Shown one piece after another: positions 3,149 through 62,663 of a DNA stretch of 64,000 nt. The notes below the pieces were generated by a model that saw only the letters and a list, made by a program, of their open reading frames with translations, made no database searches and had not been told where the DNA came from. The DNA comes from Desulfurococcaceae archaeon AG1 (GTDB taxonomy: Archaea > Thermoproteota > Thermoprotei_A > Sulfolobales > AG1). Within the stretch, counting starts at the first letter, position 1, and each line of letters opens with the position of its first letter. The translations under genes and the position numbers were made by a program. Location: NCBI GenBank assembly GCA_003116855.1, contig BEWT01000016.1, positions 176,183 through 240,182 of the forward strand. Reading direction: 5' to 3'.

Positions 3149-3592
3149 CTAGATCCCTGTCGCTCTTATAGTCCTCACAATGTTAGAGCTCGGTATTGTA
3201 ACTGTGACTATAACCTCGTTAACCTTAGCCGCGTTGTTTATTGTTAGAGGGATCGTTATCGATGATCTGGGATTAATGCTCTGAGGAAGACTTATACCCA
3301 GCAGATTGCCTGAAGTAGTATTTACACCACTTCCGGTGGTAGTGTATACCACCGTAATGTTAGAAATGTTAACAGGCTCGTTCCCATTATTGCTCACGGT
3401 TAGTGTTACTAGGAGTGAGTCTGCGGCAACACTTCTAGAGACATAGGTAGCTGTCACGGGATCTAGCTCCGGCATTCTCCCCATCTGCCCTACCAGCCAT
3501 GATTGTAATATGAACATAACTGGTATGGCTATGGCGACTGCTATCATTATAACTACCAGCTCGCTTAAACCTTTCGATATTCTTTTCCTCAA
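3149..3592 (-). CDS. Archaeal type IV pilin-like protein with class III signal peptide
   Basis: A 147-residue protein from a TTG at 3592. The short basic leader RKRISKG is followed by LSELVVIMIAVAIAIPVMFI, the pattern cleaved by archaeal prepilin peptidase (PibD) after the glycine, leaving an N-terminal hydrophobic helix that both anchors and polymerises the pilin. The remaining part is rich in Thr, Asn and Ser with several N-x-S/T sites (VNISNITV, NTTSG), as expected of a glycosylated surface pilin. The same frame is open to 3700, but the TATA box at 3619-3626 sits about 26 bases before position 3596, so the TTG at 3592 is the better start. It is the first gene of the pilus operon. Confidence 0.75.
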   Translation of the reverse strand: MRKRISKGLSELVVIMIAVAIAIPVMFILQSWLVGQMGRMPELDPVTATYVSRSVAADSLLVTLTVSNNGNEPVNISNITVVYTTTGSGVNTTSGNLLGISLPQSINPRSSITIPLTINNAAKVNEVIVTVTIPSSNIVRTIRATGI

Positions 3593-8434: not shown

Positions 8435-8456
8435 CCCTTGATAAACAGTACTAATC

Positions 8457-8763
8457 GGCGGGTAGGGCCGGGGGGTTCGCCCACCCCCATACCCGAGGTG
8501 GGCGTAACGCGGGGGCCAGTAACCGCTCCAGGCCATATATGGGGCTGCGGGATCCTCACTCCAGCAATGAAACCCGCCCCGTGGGGCTTGTGGTGGTGGG
8601 GGCCCTCTCGGAGGAGAGGGTCTAACCACCTTTACGAGGGGAAAGCGGCCAGGCCCGGAAGGGAGCAACCTAACCCTCGGCACAAGCGTTCACGGGTCAC
8701 CGGGGGGAGCGGGGAGGGAGGGTTGATCCCGCAGCTCTATATATGGTTTGGAGCGGGGCCGCC
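8457..8763 (+). ncRNA. ffs: Signal recognition particle 7S RNA
   Basis: A GC-rich island in otherwise AT-rich DNA. The S-domain helix 8 core GGCCAGGCCCGGAAGGGAGC occurs at 8648-8667, and the 5' Alu-type domain has a CGCCCACC...GGTGGGCG hairpin (8478-8504 region). A long helix 5 forms between GCTCCAGGCCATATATGGGG at about 8525 and the nearly complementary stretch 8724-8754. The ends GGCGG (8457) and CCGCC (8763) pair as helix 1, which fixes the length at about 307 bases, normal for archaea. The RNA scaffolds SRP19 and SRP54 for co-translational targeting to the membrane. Confidence 0.93.
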
Positions 8764-8829
8764 TGGACATCGATATAGACCTAATTATTAATATTCTCGA
8801 AGTGTTATCCTAGTGGTGGCTATACAGAT

Positions 8830-11165: not shown

Positions 11166-12329
11166 ATGGACATGCTGAAGGTTCTAATACTAGCAGGCGG
11201 GTCTGGTAAGGAGATAGAGCCCCTAACAAAGGGCGAGCCAAAAGCCTTTCTAAGGATCCTTGGTAAGAGCATAATCTCCCATGTTGTGTCAAGGTTAGTG
11301 GCAGTCGGTTATAAAAACATATACATAGTGAGTGACAAGCCCGAACTTATGGAGAAAGAGGTTAGTGAGTACAAAAGGGTCTCGACGATAAGTGTGGTGG
11401 AGCAGAGAGGAGTAGGTGTAGAAGCAGCCCTCTTATCAGCCCGCAATAAAATGGATCTAGAGGAAGGGGAGAAGTTCCTGTTAGTATATGGGGATATACT
11501 GGTTAATCCCTCAGCATATATCTCAATACAGAGAGCAGCATTCGAGAGTGGTTTTGAAGGGGCAATGCTAGCTGTCCCGGAGACTCCTCTTCAGAGCCAT
11601 GGTGTGATTGAAGTTAACGAGTGGGGCGAGGTTGTGTCCGTTAGACAAGCTAGCGAGGCTTCCTATCGAGGCGATGAGGCTAGATATATATCGGGAGGGA
11701 TCTATGTTTTTAGCTCCACGATCTTCGATCTTGTCGAGAAACTAGGCGATATAGTGAGGGCCTACGACGCTATATGTAGGGAGAAAAGGATCAAGGCTAT
11801 CTTCTGGGGGCATTATTGGGTAAACATAGGAAGTCCATGGGATCTTCTCACAGCCAGCTATTACATGCTTAGCGAGCTGGATAGGAGTTATATAAGTGCT
11901 AGAGCATCTATATCGAAGTCAGCAATCATAGAGGGCCCTGTAATCATAGAAGATGAAGCAGTGATAGATCATAATGTGATTCTTAAGGGGCCTTTATATA
12001 TAGGTAAAGAAGCCTTCATAGGTGTTAACACCTTTATAAGAAACGCAACATCCATTGAGGATAGAGCTGTGGTTGGTTCTTACTCAGAGATCAACAGATC
12101 TGTTATCATGAGGGAGGCAACCATAGGTAGGGGTAGCTATATAGGCTACTCGGTAGTTGGTGAGAGAGCAGTCATAGAACCCAATGTTGCTACATGGAAC
12201 ATAGCATACAGACCTGAAAGAAGATCTCTAGCCAAGGGGAAAGAATATGCAAGGATAGGATGCACAATAGCAAAGGGTTCTAGGGTGAAAGCCGGATCTA
12301 TATTAAATCCAGGAGAAATAATAGTCTAA
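11166..12329 (+). CDS. Sugar-nucleotidyltransferase-fold protein with left-handed beta-helix
   Basis: A 387-residue two-domain protein 14 bases after the peptidase gene. Residues 1-230 match the NTP-transferase Rossmann-like fold (LILAGGSGKEIEPLT at the N-terminus, then VYGDILVNP and YWVNIGSPWDL). Residues 240-387 are a left-handed beta-helix with hexapeptide repeats (AIIEGPVIIEDEAVIDHNVI and on). Archaeal homologues are bifunctional sugar-1-phosphate nucleotidylyltransferases/acetyltransferases making UDP- or dTDP-sugars. The conserved pattern GxGTRLxPLT reads GSGKEIEPLT here, so the arginine that binds the triphosphate is replaced by glutamate; activity may be altered or lost. It could act in glycan supply or as a regulatory homologue. 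Confidence 0.75.
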   Translation: MDMLKVLILAGGSGKEIEPLTKGEPKAFLRILGKSIISHVVSRLVAVGYKNIYIVSDKPELMEKEVSEYKRVSTISVVEQRGVGVEAALLSARNKMDLEEGEKFLLVYGDILVNPSAYISIQRAAFESGFEGAMLAVPETPLQSHGVIEVNEWGEVVSVRQASEASYRGDEARYISGGIYVFSSTIFDLVEKLGDIVRAYDAICREKRIKAIFWGHYWVNIGSPWDLLTASYYMLSELDRSYISARASISKSAIIEGPVIIEDEAVIDHNVILKGPLYIGKEAFIGVNTFIRNATSIEDRAVVGSYSEINRSVIMREATIGRGSYIGYSVVGERAVIEPNVATWNIAYRPERRSLAKGKEYARIGCTIAKGSRVKAGSILNPGEIIV

Positions 12330-29900: not shown

Positions 29901-31262
29901 CTAACCCTTGTCTGTTCCAGCTAGTTTCAACAACTCTGAAAGCCTCTCTTCATACTCTCTGAGCCTTGCTTCTTTTTCGTCAGCGAACTTCTTTACCTCT
30001 TCAGGGTTTGGCGATCCTCTGAATCTTTTTTTCTCTAAGAAGCTCATCGAGTCTTTAAGCTGCGGATATTCTTCTAACAAGCACTTGGATCCTTTCTCCC
30101 TTATCTTGCTAGCTATAATTCTATGTGCTTCTCTATGGGGTATTCTTTTCTCTATAGATAGGATCTCGGCTAGATCTGCTGTTAGTAACTCGGGATCCCT
30201 TGAGATCTCTTCAGATCTCTTCTCATCGATCTCAATGTTACTGAATAGATCGTGTAGTATGGTTAGACCTTCAACAGTGTTATCAAAGATCCTCCAGGAG
30301 ATTCTGTTGATCTCCTGGAAATCCAGGTTATACCCACTGGGTGTGGCCCTATAGATATCCAAGATAGATGTGAATAGCCCCAAGGACTCGCCAACCCGTG
30401 CCCTCAGTATCTCAAGCGTGACTGGGTTCACTTTGTGGGGCATTATGCTGCTTGTGGCTGTATGCTTGTTGGGGATCTTTATGATACCATATCTACTCAT
30501 CGATAGAATTATCAGATCCTGTGTAATTCTGCTTAGGAAAGCTAACAGGCTTGTAACTATGCCCAATGGGAGTATTAGGAAACCCCTGCTCGAAACCATA
30601 TAGAGCGTGTTTCTACTATGTCTGGCGAAACCCAACTCCCTTGCTATCTTATCCCTATCAAGATTCACGGTGGTTCCTCCAACAGCCCCGGCTCCCAGTG
30701 GCATCACATCAACGATCTCGAAGGTTTTTTCTAACAAGGTCAAGTGATCCTCGAGCTCTTCGTCTATGCTGAGCAAATAGTGTCCAAACGTTATTGGCTG
30801 AGCCTCACGTGTATGGGTATAAGCTGGGAAGAGGGTTGATGCATAGATCTTGGCTTTCTCTATTAGGGTTCTTCTTAGCTTTATGAGAAGGATCATTATC
30901 CGTGCTATGTATTTCTTTGTCTTTAGCCTAAGGGTAGCGGCTATATGGTCGTTCCTACTCCTCCCAAGGGAGAACCAGCTTGCGACGCTGCCTATTCTAT
31001 CTTGTAGATATAACTCTATTGCTTCAAAAACATCCTCAGCCTCGCCATATTCTAAGAGTTTTCTTGGCTCTTTTTTAAGCTCCTCAAGACATGAAAGGAT
31101 CTTCTCTCCATCGCTTTTAGGTATTATATTATCATCTACAAGAGCCTTTACCCTAGCCCTTTCTACCTCTATAACCTCTTCCAGGATCATCTCATCATAT
31201 TTTAGCGATGAGGTGTACCAGTTGAGGTTCTCCTTACCGAGAAGGGGCTCTCTATAGAGCGT
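29901..31262 (-). CDS. argH: Argininosuccinate lyase, probable ACG start
   Basis: Last enzyme of arginine synthesis, splitting argininosuccinate to arginine and fumarate. The signature [16 protein letters not shown] is near residue 275 of the ATG form; [20 protein letters not shown] and [17 protein letters not shown] are typical. From the first ATG (31190) there are 429 residues, but the preceding 24 in-frame codons encode [20 protein letters not shown], which fits the normal N-terminus (archaeal ArgH starts M-L/K-Y-R and has a YTSS motif). No ATG, GTG or TTG exists there; an ACG at 31262 follows GGTGA by six bases and would give MLYREP. I annotate 453 residues from ACG, overlapping argG by 11 bases. 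Confidence 0.9.
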
Positions 31263-32451
31263 TTCTCCTCACCCTAAGGGCTGAGAGGGAGTGCATCCCC
31301 CATATCTCTATAAAGCCTATAGCCTTCTCCTCAGATGGATACCATCCCACGTCATAGCTCGCTATGTTCTGGCTATATATCATATACGGGCTTTTCCTCG
31401 ATATAACAGTTACCGAGCCCTTATAGATCCTCACTCCTACAGAGCCTGTGACCCACCTATTCATCTCGTCTCCCAGAGCCTCAATAGCTCTTCTTGCCGG
31501 TTCGAACCAGAGCCCGTTATATACTAGATCGCTCCATATGGGTTCGACCATCCTCTTTATCCTCAGCTCTCTTGGCGTTAGCACAGCTTTCTCCAGATCC
31601 TCGTGAGCCTTTATAAGTATAGTAGCCGCAGGGGCTTCGTATACCTCTCTCGACTTGAAACCCACAAGCCTGTTCTCGATATGATCTATTCTTCCAACGC
31701 CATGGGATCCTCCGATAATATTTAAAGTATTTATCAGCTTCACGGGATCCATCTTTTCACCATTAATCGCTACCGGGATCCCCTGGCTAAACTCTATCTC
31801 CAGGGTAAGCGGGTTGTCGGGAGCTTTTTCAGGAGATACTGTCCATTTGAATGCCTCCTCAGGCGGAGGGTGTGAGGGGTCATCTAGCTCTCCACCCTCT
31901 ATGCTCCTTCCCCAGAGGTTGTCATCAACGCTGTATTTTTTATTAACGTTGGGAACCTCTATTCCCCGTGCTCTTAGATATTCGATCTCATCTTTTCGGG
32001 TCATACCCCAGGATCTCGCTGGGGTTATTATTTTTATATCAGGATCTAGAGCCCTTATTGTAAGATCGAATCTAACCTGATCATTCCCCTTTGACGTAGA
32101 CCCGTGGGCTATAGCGTCGGCACCAACCTTTTTAGCTACTCTTAACACTTTCTCAGCTATAAGGGGTCTTGCCAGTGCAGTGCTGAGGGGGTAGGAGCCC
32201 TCGTAAAGAGCGTTCATCTTTATGGCAGGGAATATATATCCTCTTGCAAAATCCTCCTTAGCATCTATGGTATAATGCTGTGAAGCTCCTGCCTTAAGTG
32301 CCCTTCTCTCAACATCTTCGAAATCCTCCTCCTGTCCTACATCTACGGTAACTGTTATTACCTCTGCCTGGTATTTTTCTTTTAGCCATACTATACATGT
32401 GGTTGTATCAAGCCCTCCGGAGTATGCGAGAACAACTCTCACGATACACAC
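31252..32451 (-). CDS. argG: Argininosuccinate synthase
   Basis: A 399-residue enzyme joining citrulline and aspartate. It has the ATP-pyrophosphatase loop [20 protein letters not shown] at the N-terminus, [17 protein letters not shown] near residue 115, and [15 protein letters not shown] near residue 190. The GTG at 32451 is exactly 26 bases from the centre of a TATA box, so it is leaderless; a second GTG lies three codons further. It is transcribed with argH; argF lies elsewhere in this window at 43.4 kb. Confidence 0.96.
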
Positions 32452-32574: not shown

Positions 32575-32690
32575 AATATTTATAACATACAAACTCAGTT
32601 CATAGTGTTAGGCAACAAGCTCAACTGGCCAGTGATGAGAGAACGATCTGTTTATCAAAATATTAGGGTTTGTTAGATATTTATGATAGG

Positions 32691-32756
32691 AGCCCGCCGA
32701 TCCCACACCTTCTGAGGAGACACTCCCTAGGAGGAAGGGCAGCTCGGCGGGCTACA
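32691..32756 (+). ncRNA. Candidate H/ACA box guide RNA
   Basis: AGCCCGCCGA (32691-32700) and TCGGCGGGCT (32744-32753) form a perfect 10-bp lower stem, followed immediately by ACA (32754-32756). Inside, CCTTC (32708-32712) pairs with GAAGG (32734-32738), and GGAG/CTCC closes an apical hairpin separated from it by TGA on one side and GA-containing bases on the other, which resembles a kink-turn for L7Ae. The two unpaired segments between the stems (32701-32707 and 32739-32743) would be the pseudouridylation pocket. A TATA-like AAAATATTA is centred near 32661, 26 bases before 32687. It stands alone between genes as a GC-rich island. Confidence 0.6.
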
Positions 32757-32760
32757 CCAC

Positions 32761-32809
32761 ATGACGAAGATCATCGGCTCTGAATAGTGATGTGCCTAGA
32801 CCAGGCTGA
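32761..32809 (+). ncRNA. Candidate C/D box guide RNA
   Basis: Elements in exact order and spacing: box C-like ATGACGA (32761-32767), 12-base guide (32768-32779), box D' CTGA (32780-32783), 3-base spacer, box C'-like GTGATGT (32787-32793), 12-base guide (32794-32805), box D CTGA (32806-32809). Archaeal C/D RNAs of about 50 bases guide 2'-O-methylation of rRNA or tRNA five bases upstream of D and D'. Boxes C and C' each differ from RTGATGA at one position. It begins four bases after the candidate H/ACA RNA, so the two may come from one precursor. Confidence 0.6.
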
Positions 32810-33141
32810 TCATTAAAAGATAACATAGCATTATCTATATAGTTCGAATTGATTTTATACCAACTGCGGGTTTATCGCTCTATGACCTGGAGAGATACTG
32901 AGGAGCCTTTAGCTTATACAAGCCTACCTATATTGGGAATACGAGCTGGGCTTTTCGAATTAAAAGAGGAGATATCTTTTACCATAAACTTTCCATAGCA
33001 GGATCAGGATAACTGAGATAAGTTCTAAAATATGTGTTTTCTTGGTATCTGTGTTAGTCTTTGTCGATCTTTCAGTCCTTAGTGTATTTCTTTAAACCTA
33101 TATACCAAATACCAAAACCACTAGCAGTAACAGTGTTGAGC
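32810..33141. other. Intergenic remainder downstream of guide RNA candidates
   Basis: No ORF or further guide-RNA box set was found between the C/D candidate and the 3' end of the minus-strand thioredoxin-like gene. Confidence 0.35.
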
Positions 33142-33711
33142 CTATCTCGCTATTTTTGACCTCACTATAACCTCTAGATATTGAGGTAGGAATTCCTGGG
33201 TAGGTATGTTTCCTGATCGTTGTAGTTGTAAATACTCTTCACCGATGTTCCATATACTCTCTACCCACCCACTTGCGTTTACCTTGATTAATAGGAAGAA
33301 TGGTGATGATGTTACTCCGTATAGTTCGAATGTGATCCTTGCAGCATCATTGTTACACTGCTGAGTGAACCAGTCACATACAACTTCGACCACGGTTATA
33401 TTTCTGAACACGCCTCCCTCACTCTTGAGATAGTTTATCCATTTTGGATAGAATACTTGGCAGTGGGGGCATAGATTGTTATGAAAATATAGAAAGTAAT
33501 AACCAGGTTCTCTCGGTATGAAGGGTCCCTGGATATTCAGTGGTACAAAGGAGTTGTTCTTATACACATAGATACCGTTTGGAATTTTTGAAGGGTTCTC
33601 ATCACTAGGTTGGCTTTGAAGCAGTATATAAATAGCTATTAGGGATCCGATAAGTATAAGTAGGATCGCTATTAAACCTAGACTACCTATGCCTCTCACG
33701 AATCCACCCAA
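33142..33711 (-). CDS. Membrane-anchored extracytoplasmic thioredoxin-like protein (CPHC)
   Basis: A 189-residue protein with one N-terminal membrane helix (IGSLGLIAILLILIGSLIAI, residues 8-30) and an outside thioredoxin fold. The active site is CPHC in YFHNNLCPHCQVFYP near residue 85, then VVCDWFTQQC near residue 112 and VTSSPFFLLIKV as the cis-proline region. The two extra cysteines and the WFT motif are shared with the cytoplasmic paralogue at 23532-24074. CPHC is the DsbA/E-type active site, so disulfide exchange outside the membrane is likely. The TTG at 33711 is 26 bases from the TTAAATTAA box at 33732-33740, so leaderless. Confidence 0.75.
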   Translation of the reverse strand: MGGFVRGIGSLGLIAILLILIGSLIAIYILLQSQPSDENPSKIPNGIYVYKNNSFVPLNIQGPFIPREPGYYFLYFHNNLCPHCQVFYPKWINYLKSEGGVFRNITVVEVVCDWFTQQCNNDAARITFELYGVTSSPFFLLIKVNASGWVESIWNIGEEYLQLQRSGNIPTQEFLPQYLEVIVRSKIAR

Positions 33712-60582: not shown

Positions 60583-60657
60583 GGGCCCGTCGTCTAGCCC
60601 GGTTAGGACGCCGCCCTTACGAGGCGGAGGTCCTGGGTTCAAATCCCAGCGGGCCCA
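60583..60657 (+). tRNA. tRNA-Val (anticodon UAC), copy A
   Basis: All arms pair: acceptor GGGCCCG/CGGGCCC, D-stem GTC/GAC, anticodon stem CCGCC/GGCGG enclosing loop CTTACGA (anticodon TAC, valine), a five-base variable region, T-arm CTGGG TTCAAAT CCCAG. The discriminator is A and CCA is not encoded. No intron is present. Confidence 0.96.
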
Positions 60658-61378
60658 CTAACTATTCGTTATCTAGTTCATAGAGATCTTGGGATCCACG
60701 CGGGGTTATAGTAGTATTGAACTTGATTAAATGGGCTCTTCCTATTTAGCTGGGAAATAATCCTCTGGATAGCTTGGAGCAATGTTTCTATCACCCTCCA
60801 GGGCTTTGTACAGTTAGCCTTAATCCTGTTTTTGATGCTGATCTCTGGCCTGAGTTAAAGTATCTATGGAGTTTGGGATCAGGTCTATTTTAATCAGCAT
60901 AACTAAGGGCTAGTATGCTGATTCTTAAATCATATTCTCATATTCTTAAGTCATATTGAGTTCTTCTTCGTACAGGACATTCCTTCCCAGACGATTCCTT
61001 TTTCTTTAGCTTTAGAAAGCTCTTATCCCTTGTGTATGTATCGTGTATGTATCCTAATCGCTGTATGAGCATAATGTGATGGTAAATGGGGATAAAGACC
61101 GCGAACCTCCCTATTTTAAAACCTTAAGCTTTGTGAAAGATGCTGTCTCCCTCCAGCAACATGTATTGCTAACTGCTTAACAAGAACACTAAAGAGTTTC
61201 TTGAACTTACAGTAACAATCCTTGCAATCATAGAAACATCATTAATGATCACTAGAGATACTGGAGAGAGAAAAACCGGAAAAACCATATAGACTAAAGC
61301 TGCTTATAACTTATCATCACGAGTATAAGAAATAAAACAGCCCGTGACAAAATCCCTCTACATATGGATCGGCGTGTA
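60658..61378. other. Intergenic spacer between tRNA-Val copy A and archaellin copy B
   Basis: A 721-base stretch without convincing ORF, tRNA or guide-RNA boxes. It contains AT-rich tracts. It is the unit spacer of the archaellin-tRNA tandem duplication. Confidence 0.4.
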
Positions 61379-62588: not shown

Positions 62589-62663
62589 GGGCCCGTCGTC
62601 TAGCCCGGTTAGGACGCCGCCCTTACGAGGCGGAGGTCCTGGGTTCAAATCTCAGCGGGCTCA
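62589..62663 (+). tRNA. tRNA-Val (anticodon UAC), copy B
   Basis: Identical to the tRNA at 60583-60657 except for two C-to-T changes, one in the T-stem (CTCAG for CCCAG) and one in the acceptor stem (CGGGCTC for CGGGCCC). Each turns a G-C pair into a G-U wobble, so folding is kept but weakened. It belongs to the tandem duplicated block and may be a functional extra copy or a decaying one. Confidence 0.9.

Follow-up and report, generated by a model that had tools for sequence, protein, structure and literature searches.

The intergenic region between argG and a thioredoxin-like ORF in the Desulfurococcaceae archaeon AG1 raises the question whether two classes of guide RNA, an H/ACA hairpin and a C/D box frame lying a few bases apart on one strand, belong to a single molecule and, if so, which nucleotides this RNA would modify. 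The guide-RNA island stands out by a GC content of up to 53% (windows of 120) against 24-40% in the flanks; it is single-copy in its own genome, a draft assembly, and no match to it was found by a search of the plasmid collection. Tandem guide RNA candidates were placed here in a preliminary description, every coordinate of which held when the sequence was re-read (Table 1). Several other RNA genes are found in the window, i.e., the whole stretch of 64,000 nucleotides that was analysed, such as an archaeal SRP RNA gene (8456-8764, 174.6 bits) and two near-identical tRNA-Val(UAC) genes (60583-60658 and 62589-62663), about 2 kb apart and identical in the 5' flank, with the second copy altered in the T and acceptor stems, as may be expected of a tandem duplication or the remnant of an attachment site. 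A weak second match to the H/ACA model lies on the minus strand of the window at 11417-11479 (E = 0.068).

The first module shows the hairpin with an internal pocket, the kink-turn and the ACA directly 3' of the lower stem that characterize the archaeal H/ACA guides, and the 10-bp hairpin that had been described here is thus present and well supported, both by its stability and by covariation in 8 of its 18 pairs. The hairpin folds at -38.6 kcal/mol (z = -4.67), with none of 200 shuffled sequences equally stable, the entire H/ACA and C/D region has a fold z of -3.92, and the R2 model, built partly from the same sequence, scores the module at 76.8 bits. The register of the kink-turn given in Table 1 is the one supported by the relatives in the alignment with the locus L002. 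In productive H/ACA folds, 14-15 nt separate the first pair of the upper stem from the ACA (PMC4652768), and the distance from G32738 to the ACA is 15 nt (32739-32753). Against a yardstick of 10 base pairs for the GA stem of productive folds, 8-9 layers are present by our own count, namely six standard pairs, two sheared G.A pairs and A32707 opposite G32739. The second module spans 32761-32809 and has the boxes and the guides of about 10-12 nt by which archaeal C/D RNAs are recognized, all four boxes being found where they had been described, with two guides of 12 nt; the D box of the counterpart in the congener G001 reads CGGA.

Table 1. Features of the guide-RNA island and its neighbours (positions in the window)
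Feature	Position	Strand	Evidence or remark
argG	31252-32451	minus	Pfam argininosuccinate synthase
TATA-like stretch AAAATATTA	32657-32665	+	candidate promoter of the composite RNA; sequence, inferred
H/ACA guide module (hairpin and ACA box)	32691-32756	+	fold z, covariation, R2 model
Lower stem, 10 bp	32691-32700 / 32744-32753	+	sequence, fold, covariation
5' pocket guide UCCCAC	32701-32706	+	predicted pairing with G37 and first intron bases of pre-tRNA-Tyr
Upper stem	32708-32713 / 32733-32738	+	compensatory U-A to C-G change in L002
Kink-turn tandem G.A	32714-32715 with 32731-32732	+	sequence, conserved in L002
Kink-turn bulge UAG	32728-32730	+	sequence, conserved in L002
3' pocket guide CAGCU	32740-32744	+	predicted pairing with GGCUG 5' of U35 in tRNA-Tyr
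ACA box	32754-32756	+	directly 3' of lower stem; invariant in six aligned relatives
Linker, four bases, ACA to C box	32757-32760	+	3-6 nt long in nine genomes from both families
C box ATGACGA	32761-32767	+	one departure from RTGATGA
D' guide AGATCATCGGCT, 12 nt	32768-32779	+	orphan; no target beyond shuffled guides
D' box CTGA	32780-32783	+	perfect consensus
C' box GTGATGT	32787-32793	+	one consensus departure
D guide GCCTAGACCAGG, 12 nt	32794-32805	+	32795-32805 complementary to tRNA-Gly D-loop, predicted N+5 at G19
D box CTGA	32806-32809	+	perfect consensus
Thioredoxin-like ORF	33142-33711	minus	no Pfam match at E 0.001

Both halves are conserved in the congener G001 (L002; 78% identity over 127 nt, E = 2.6e-22). 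With the guides exchanged, the composite, whose proposal the preliminary description had made dependent on the conservation of stem, ACA and box positions in close relatives, is also retained in further genomes of the order. A model made from the pair of the window RNA and L002 retrieved further hairpins of the like kind. In six related hairpins from two families, 92.6% of the cells are paired and 8 of the 18 pairs are changed on both sides, with a covariation score above all slid controls and all shuffles (0 of 500 reach it), these controls being somewhat weakened because the rows are related and the structure was derived from the same rows.

The fused layout itself recurs in the order. A second model was searched over 214 genomes and matched 78 with an E value of 0.5 or less, and a set of 74 H/ACA loci was compiled, consisting of 73 model matches and one locus from a Sulfolobus-like genome (most of it read). 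A C/D frame starts within 12 nt after the ACA in nine of these 74 loci, as compared with 231 of 200000 positions drawn at random from this DNA (0.12%), and in all nine the C box begins 3-6 nt after the ACA and the first guide measures 12 nt. The close fusions of the family f1 (G000, G001 and G002) all carry the D guide of the tRNA-Gly type discussed below; G004 of the same family has the fused layout too, with a longer linker, which brings the total to ten genomes of two families. In the six close fusions of the family f11 (G034, G189, G191, G207, G208 and G209), the C/D partner differs from that of f1. The D guides of G189, G191, G207 and G209 fit a stand-in 23S rRNA, not their own, near position 3223, and the D' guides of G191 and G209 fit it near 3248; the f11 partner probably acts on 23S rRNA, an assignment that rests on the agreement between genomes because shuffled guides mostly reach the same scores. 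H/ACA and C/D guides stand side by side on opposite strands in G003 and G005 of f1, and for the loci L004 and L006 the model assigns the H/ACA hairpin to the minus strand, so that it diverges from the C/D gene; most relatives possess the H/ACA guide without a C/D partner. The association of H/ACA with C/D guides is therefore real and repeated, and it is not obligatory. At the loci L146 and L154, an ORF that resembles the gene directly downstream of L200, a uracil-DNA glycosylase (Pfam UDG), may start at an ATG that overlaps the D box CTGA, and the composite may sit in the leader of that gene.

These data are best read as two classes of guide in a single transcription unit, and we consider it quite probable that the island encodes a bifunctional guide RNA of about 120 nt, the H/ACA half of which is directed to U35 of pre-tRNA-Tyr and the C/D half to G19 of tRNA-Gly. 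Transcription as a single unit would fit the TATA-like stretch some 26-33 nt upstream of the hairpin, a candidate promoter, AT-rich stretches being found at comparable distances in several relatives; it would also fit the linker, as a second promoter could not be accommodated within 3-6 nt. A dicistronic precursor, in which joint transcription would be followed by cleavage into one H/ACA and one C/D RNA, the pairing of the halves reflecting a shared promoter only, is a serious but rather improbable alternative. Archaeal C/D RNAs are often found in polycistronic units, including tRNA-C/D fusions (PMC7994747), and the halves can work apart, because the partners are exchanged between the families and the genes are divergent in G003 and G005. 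A precursor that is cut would not, however, require the ACA and the C box to lie as close together as they do in the nine genomes, which represent two families, and in Pyrococcus the Pab21 and snoR9 parts were reported in one transcript (PMC4652768), a precedent that speaks by analogy for a single piece, at least as far as transcription is concerned.

The targets of both halves were sought in the 23S rRNA and tRNA genes of the same genome and in the 16S rRNA of a congener, which was used because the 16S family search of the window's assembly found none. All three tRNA-Gly genes contain, in the D-loop, the sequence CCUGGUCUAGG, with which the D guide can form 11 Watson-Crick pairs, and none of 60 shuffled guides equalled this match; by the N+5 rule and our own numbering of the D-loop, the predicted site of 2'-O-methylation is G19 of tRNA-Gly. 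In the tRNA core, G19 pairs with C56. The genome collection holds 20 contigs that contain the same D guide with a correctly spaced D box, mostly without an H/ACA neighbour, and 19 of these contigs belong to Thermoproteota. Of the two target sequences that the preliminary description had predicted from the guides, that of the D guide (CCUGGUCUAGG) was thus recovered in three tRNA-Gly genes, and that of the D' guide (AGCCGAUGAUCU) was not found. For the D' guide, the rRNA and tRNA set offered no convincing partner, as 8% of shuffled guides equal its best match, which is to pre-tRNA-Thr(CGU); one orphan guide is described as the usual case among tRNA-directed C/D RNAs (PMC7994747). Ribosomal RNA was considered as the target of the C/D guides as well and set aside, with no convincing complement in the 23S of the same genome or the 16S of the congener.

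Matches to both C/D guides lie at neighbouring sites within or beside the intron of pre-tRNA-Arg(CCU) as well (L060, G000:C16:166453-166552), over 11 nt for the D guide and over 9 nt including a wobble for the D' guide, which may be chance. This pair of matches, together with C/D boxes that are slightly off consensus, might be taken to mean that the C/D half acts elsewhere than on tRNA-Gly, for example on that intron, or is decaying. Such an interpretation appears unlikely, as the match to tRNA-Gly scores 29 against 26.5 for the pre-tRNA-Arg(CCU) intron in the window genome and recurs in three isoacceptors, introns are discarded after splicing, and the D guide is shared with the 19 contigs of Thermoproteota.

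For the H/ACA half, the best of 1524 candidate uridines in the 23S, 16S and tRNAs is U35 of the intron-containing pre-tRNA-Tyr, where the pocket fits GGCUG-U35-A-GUGGGG with 5 + 6 bp; the fit alone is moderately significant, given that 28 of 1500 shuffled guides match as well somewhere. The tRNA-Tyr introns, many of which were collected across the order by one pattern search, provide a further comparison. In f1, the segment after the anticodon begins with GUGGG or GUGAG and is matched by the f1 guides, and in f11, among the genomes that have a matching guide, the segment begins with GAUGG, which those guides match. In base pairs, the f1 guides make 5-7 with the introns of their own family and 1 with those of f11; the f11 guides make 5-11 within f11, apart from the guide of G191, a genome in which the tRNA-Tyr intron was not found, and 1 with the introns of f1. 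Across 30 genomes of the order, the mean fit of a guide to its own intron is 6.60, as compared with a permuted mean of 4.34 and a permuted maximum of 5.25, and none of 5000 permutations reached the observed value, a figure that is no strict probability because related genomes are not independent. At the level of sequence comparison, this co-evolution of guide and intron is the decisive evidence for pre-tRNA-Tyr as the predicted target. The predicted substrate would be the unspliced pre-tRNA-Tyr, because the 3' side of the duplex is mostly intronic. An H/ACA RNA, Sso1, is described as guiding the pseudouridylation of U35 in Sulfolobus solfataricus in passages of two reviews that report the work of Muller et al. 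2009 (PMC4652768, PMC7991803), and the H/ACA half may be placed with the Sso1 pathway for pseudouridine 35 because its guide changes together with the intron of pre-tRNA-Tyr. The absence of an aPus7/TruD gene was considered as the reason for the guide and rejected, a gene of the TruD family being present in the window genome and in 54 of the 59 genomes searched. With this TruD/Pus7 family gene, the H/ACA guide may be redundant and not the sole route to pseudouridine 35.

An assignment of the H/ACA half to 23S rRNA, with the match to tRNA-Tyr secondary, would place the target at U1382 here and at GACCG-U-CGUGAGAC for the relatives with a CGGUC 3' guide. U1382 is the second-best site for the window H/ACA RNA (4 + 6 bp), and the CGGUC guides, e.g., that of G004, fit the 23S segment GACCG-U-C-GUGAGA well; the 5' guides of the 30 genomes nevertheless track their tRNA-Tyr introns and not this invariant segment, to which their mean fit is 4.05, and a mismatch to 23S at the fourth base occurs in several genomes whose guide matches the tRNA-Tyr intron, so that this assignment is very unlikely. 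The CGGUC relatives, considered at one stage as 23S guides, were reinterpreted accordingly, since their 5' guides follow the tRNA-Tyr intron, and a dual use for tRNA-Tyr and 23S is possible for them. The CGGUC loci (e.g., L152, L156, L166 and L188) can pair both with 23S GACCG-U-C-GUGAGAC and with pre-tRNA-Tyr, and in several genomes the tRNA-Tyr intron begins with GUGAGA, as in the 23S segment, so that one H/ACA RNA may serve both. The rRNA genes of this family exceed the family models, with 3658 bases in the 23S of L008 and 2348 and 3001 bases in the 16S of L013 and L014, which points to introns; the insert in the 16S of L013 reads like a homing endonuclease gene, and a 16S piece lies at the contig end in L008. 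Finally, a chance resemblance in a GC-rich, unexpressed intergenic stretch, in keeping with which Rfam gave no match above the gathering score in the guide-RNA region (the matches below it are archaeal C/D families on the C/D part and snoR9, RF00065, which spans both halves at 32690-32823 with E = 0.37), is hardly credible in view of the conservation in the congener, the compensatory pairs and the co-evolution of guide and target.

If one RNA carries both guides, a promoter upstream of the hairpin would drive the two halves, and the transcript may stay in one piece. The pocket of the single H/ACA hairpin would bind the unspliced pre-tRNA-Tyr across the exon-intron junction and present U35 of the anticodon GUA to Cbf5 for conversion to pseudouridine 35. 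The D guide of the C/D half would bind the D-loop of the three tRNA-Gly and direct fibrillarin to the ribose of G19. In the assembled particle, the hairpin and the ACA would carry Cbf5, Nop10 and Gar1, the C/D part would carry Nop5 and fibrillarin, and L7Ae would be bound at all the kink-turns, i.e., that of the H/ACA hairpin, C/D and C'/D'. One RNA would thereby serve two tRNA modifications.

Composite H/ACA-C/D guides are usually regarded as a eukaryotic feature of the Cajal body. In the eukaryotic composite scaRNAs, such as U85, H/ACA and C/D modules are united in one RNA; the H/ACA hairpins of U85 are nested inside the C/D frame, CAB boxes are present, and the targets are snRNAs. The modules of the window RNA stand in series, with the H/ACA first, and are not nested, and its predicted targets are tRNAs, so that the likeness is an analogy of layout and not of membership; archaea are not known to have spliceosomal snRNAs. 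According to a 2021 review, scaRNAs do not exist in archaea (PMC7991803). The likeness to scaRNAs noted in the preliminary description therefore stands for the layout, and a closer published precedent is archaeal, namely Pab21/snoR9 of Pyrococcus, an H/ACA hairpin at the 5' end of a transcript that ends in a C/D guide (PMC4652768). The snoR9 consensus (RF00065) has the ACA, five bases, and then a C box and two guides, which is the same layout as here. The window RNA differs in its guides, and the H/ACA set of Pab21 is directed to rRNA according to the 2015 paper (PMC4652768). Membership in snoR9 was rejected at 15.3 bits (E = 0.37) against a gathering threshold of 90 bits, and there is no evidence of common descent of the two RNAs.

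Each half is of a known kind. The Sso1-type H/ACA sRNA has the same predicted substrate and site, an intron-containing precursor, a single kink-turn hairpin with ACA and membership in the same order; the passages on Sso1 in the two reviews (PMC4652768, PMC7991803) describe no C/D partner, whereas the H/ACA hairpin is followed by a C/D frame in relatives that share the family of Sulfolobus. Among the tRNA-directed archaeal C/D sRNAs, Sac-sR10 for tRNA-Gly/Pro (PMC5539422) and a guide for U34/G18 of tRNA-Gln, with the D-loop methylation at G18 reported as observed (PMC7668247), likewise have one tRNA-matching guide. The relevant sections of these papers present them as C/D RNAs to which no H/ACA module is joined, and the sites named there do not include G19 of tRNA-Gly. 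The layout has its example in Pyrococcus, and what is new are the other guides and the exchanged partners. Pab21/snoR9 is the one published archaeal fused case found, with only a passing mention in PMC4652768, and the literature search, of partial coverage, returned no paper in which composite guides are treated as a class in archaea.

A recurrent class of archaeal bifunctional guides, in which an H/ACA hairpin, a linker of 3-6 nt and an exchangeable C/D module form one RNP that serves tRNAs in f1 and 23S rRNA in the other family, and which has arisen more than once and been selected, is put forward tentatively, as a proposition slightly short of an even prospect. If it is true, the fusion would have been selected, for example, to coordinate tRNA maturation. 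The presence of the layout in two families and ten genomes, with targets that co-evolve and partners that have been exchanged, makes it possible to test in culturable archaea how composite guides arose and what they are used for. The guided formation of pseudouridine 35 would be extended across the order and tied to the unspliced tRNA precursor, and this tie may bear on why these archaea keep the tRNA-Tyr intron.
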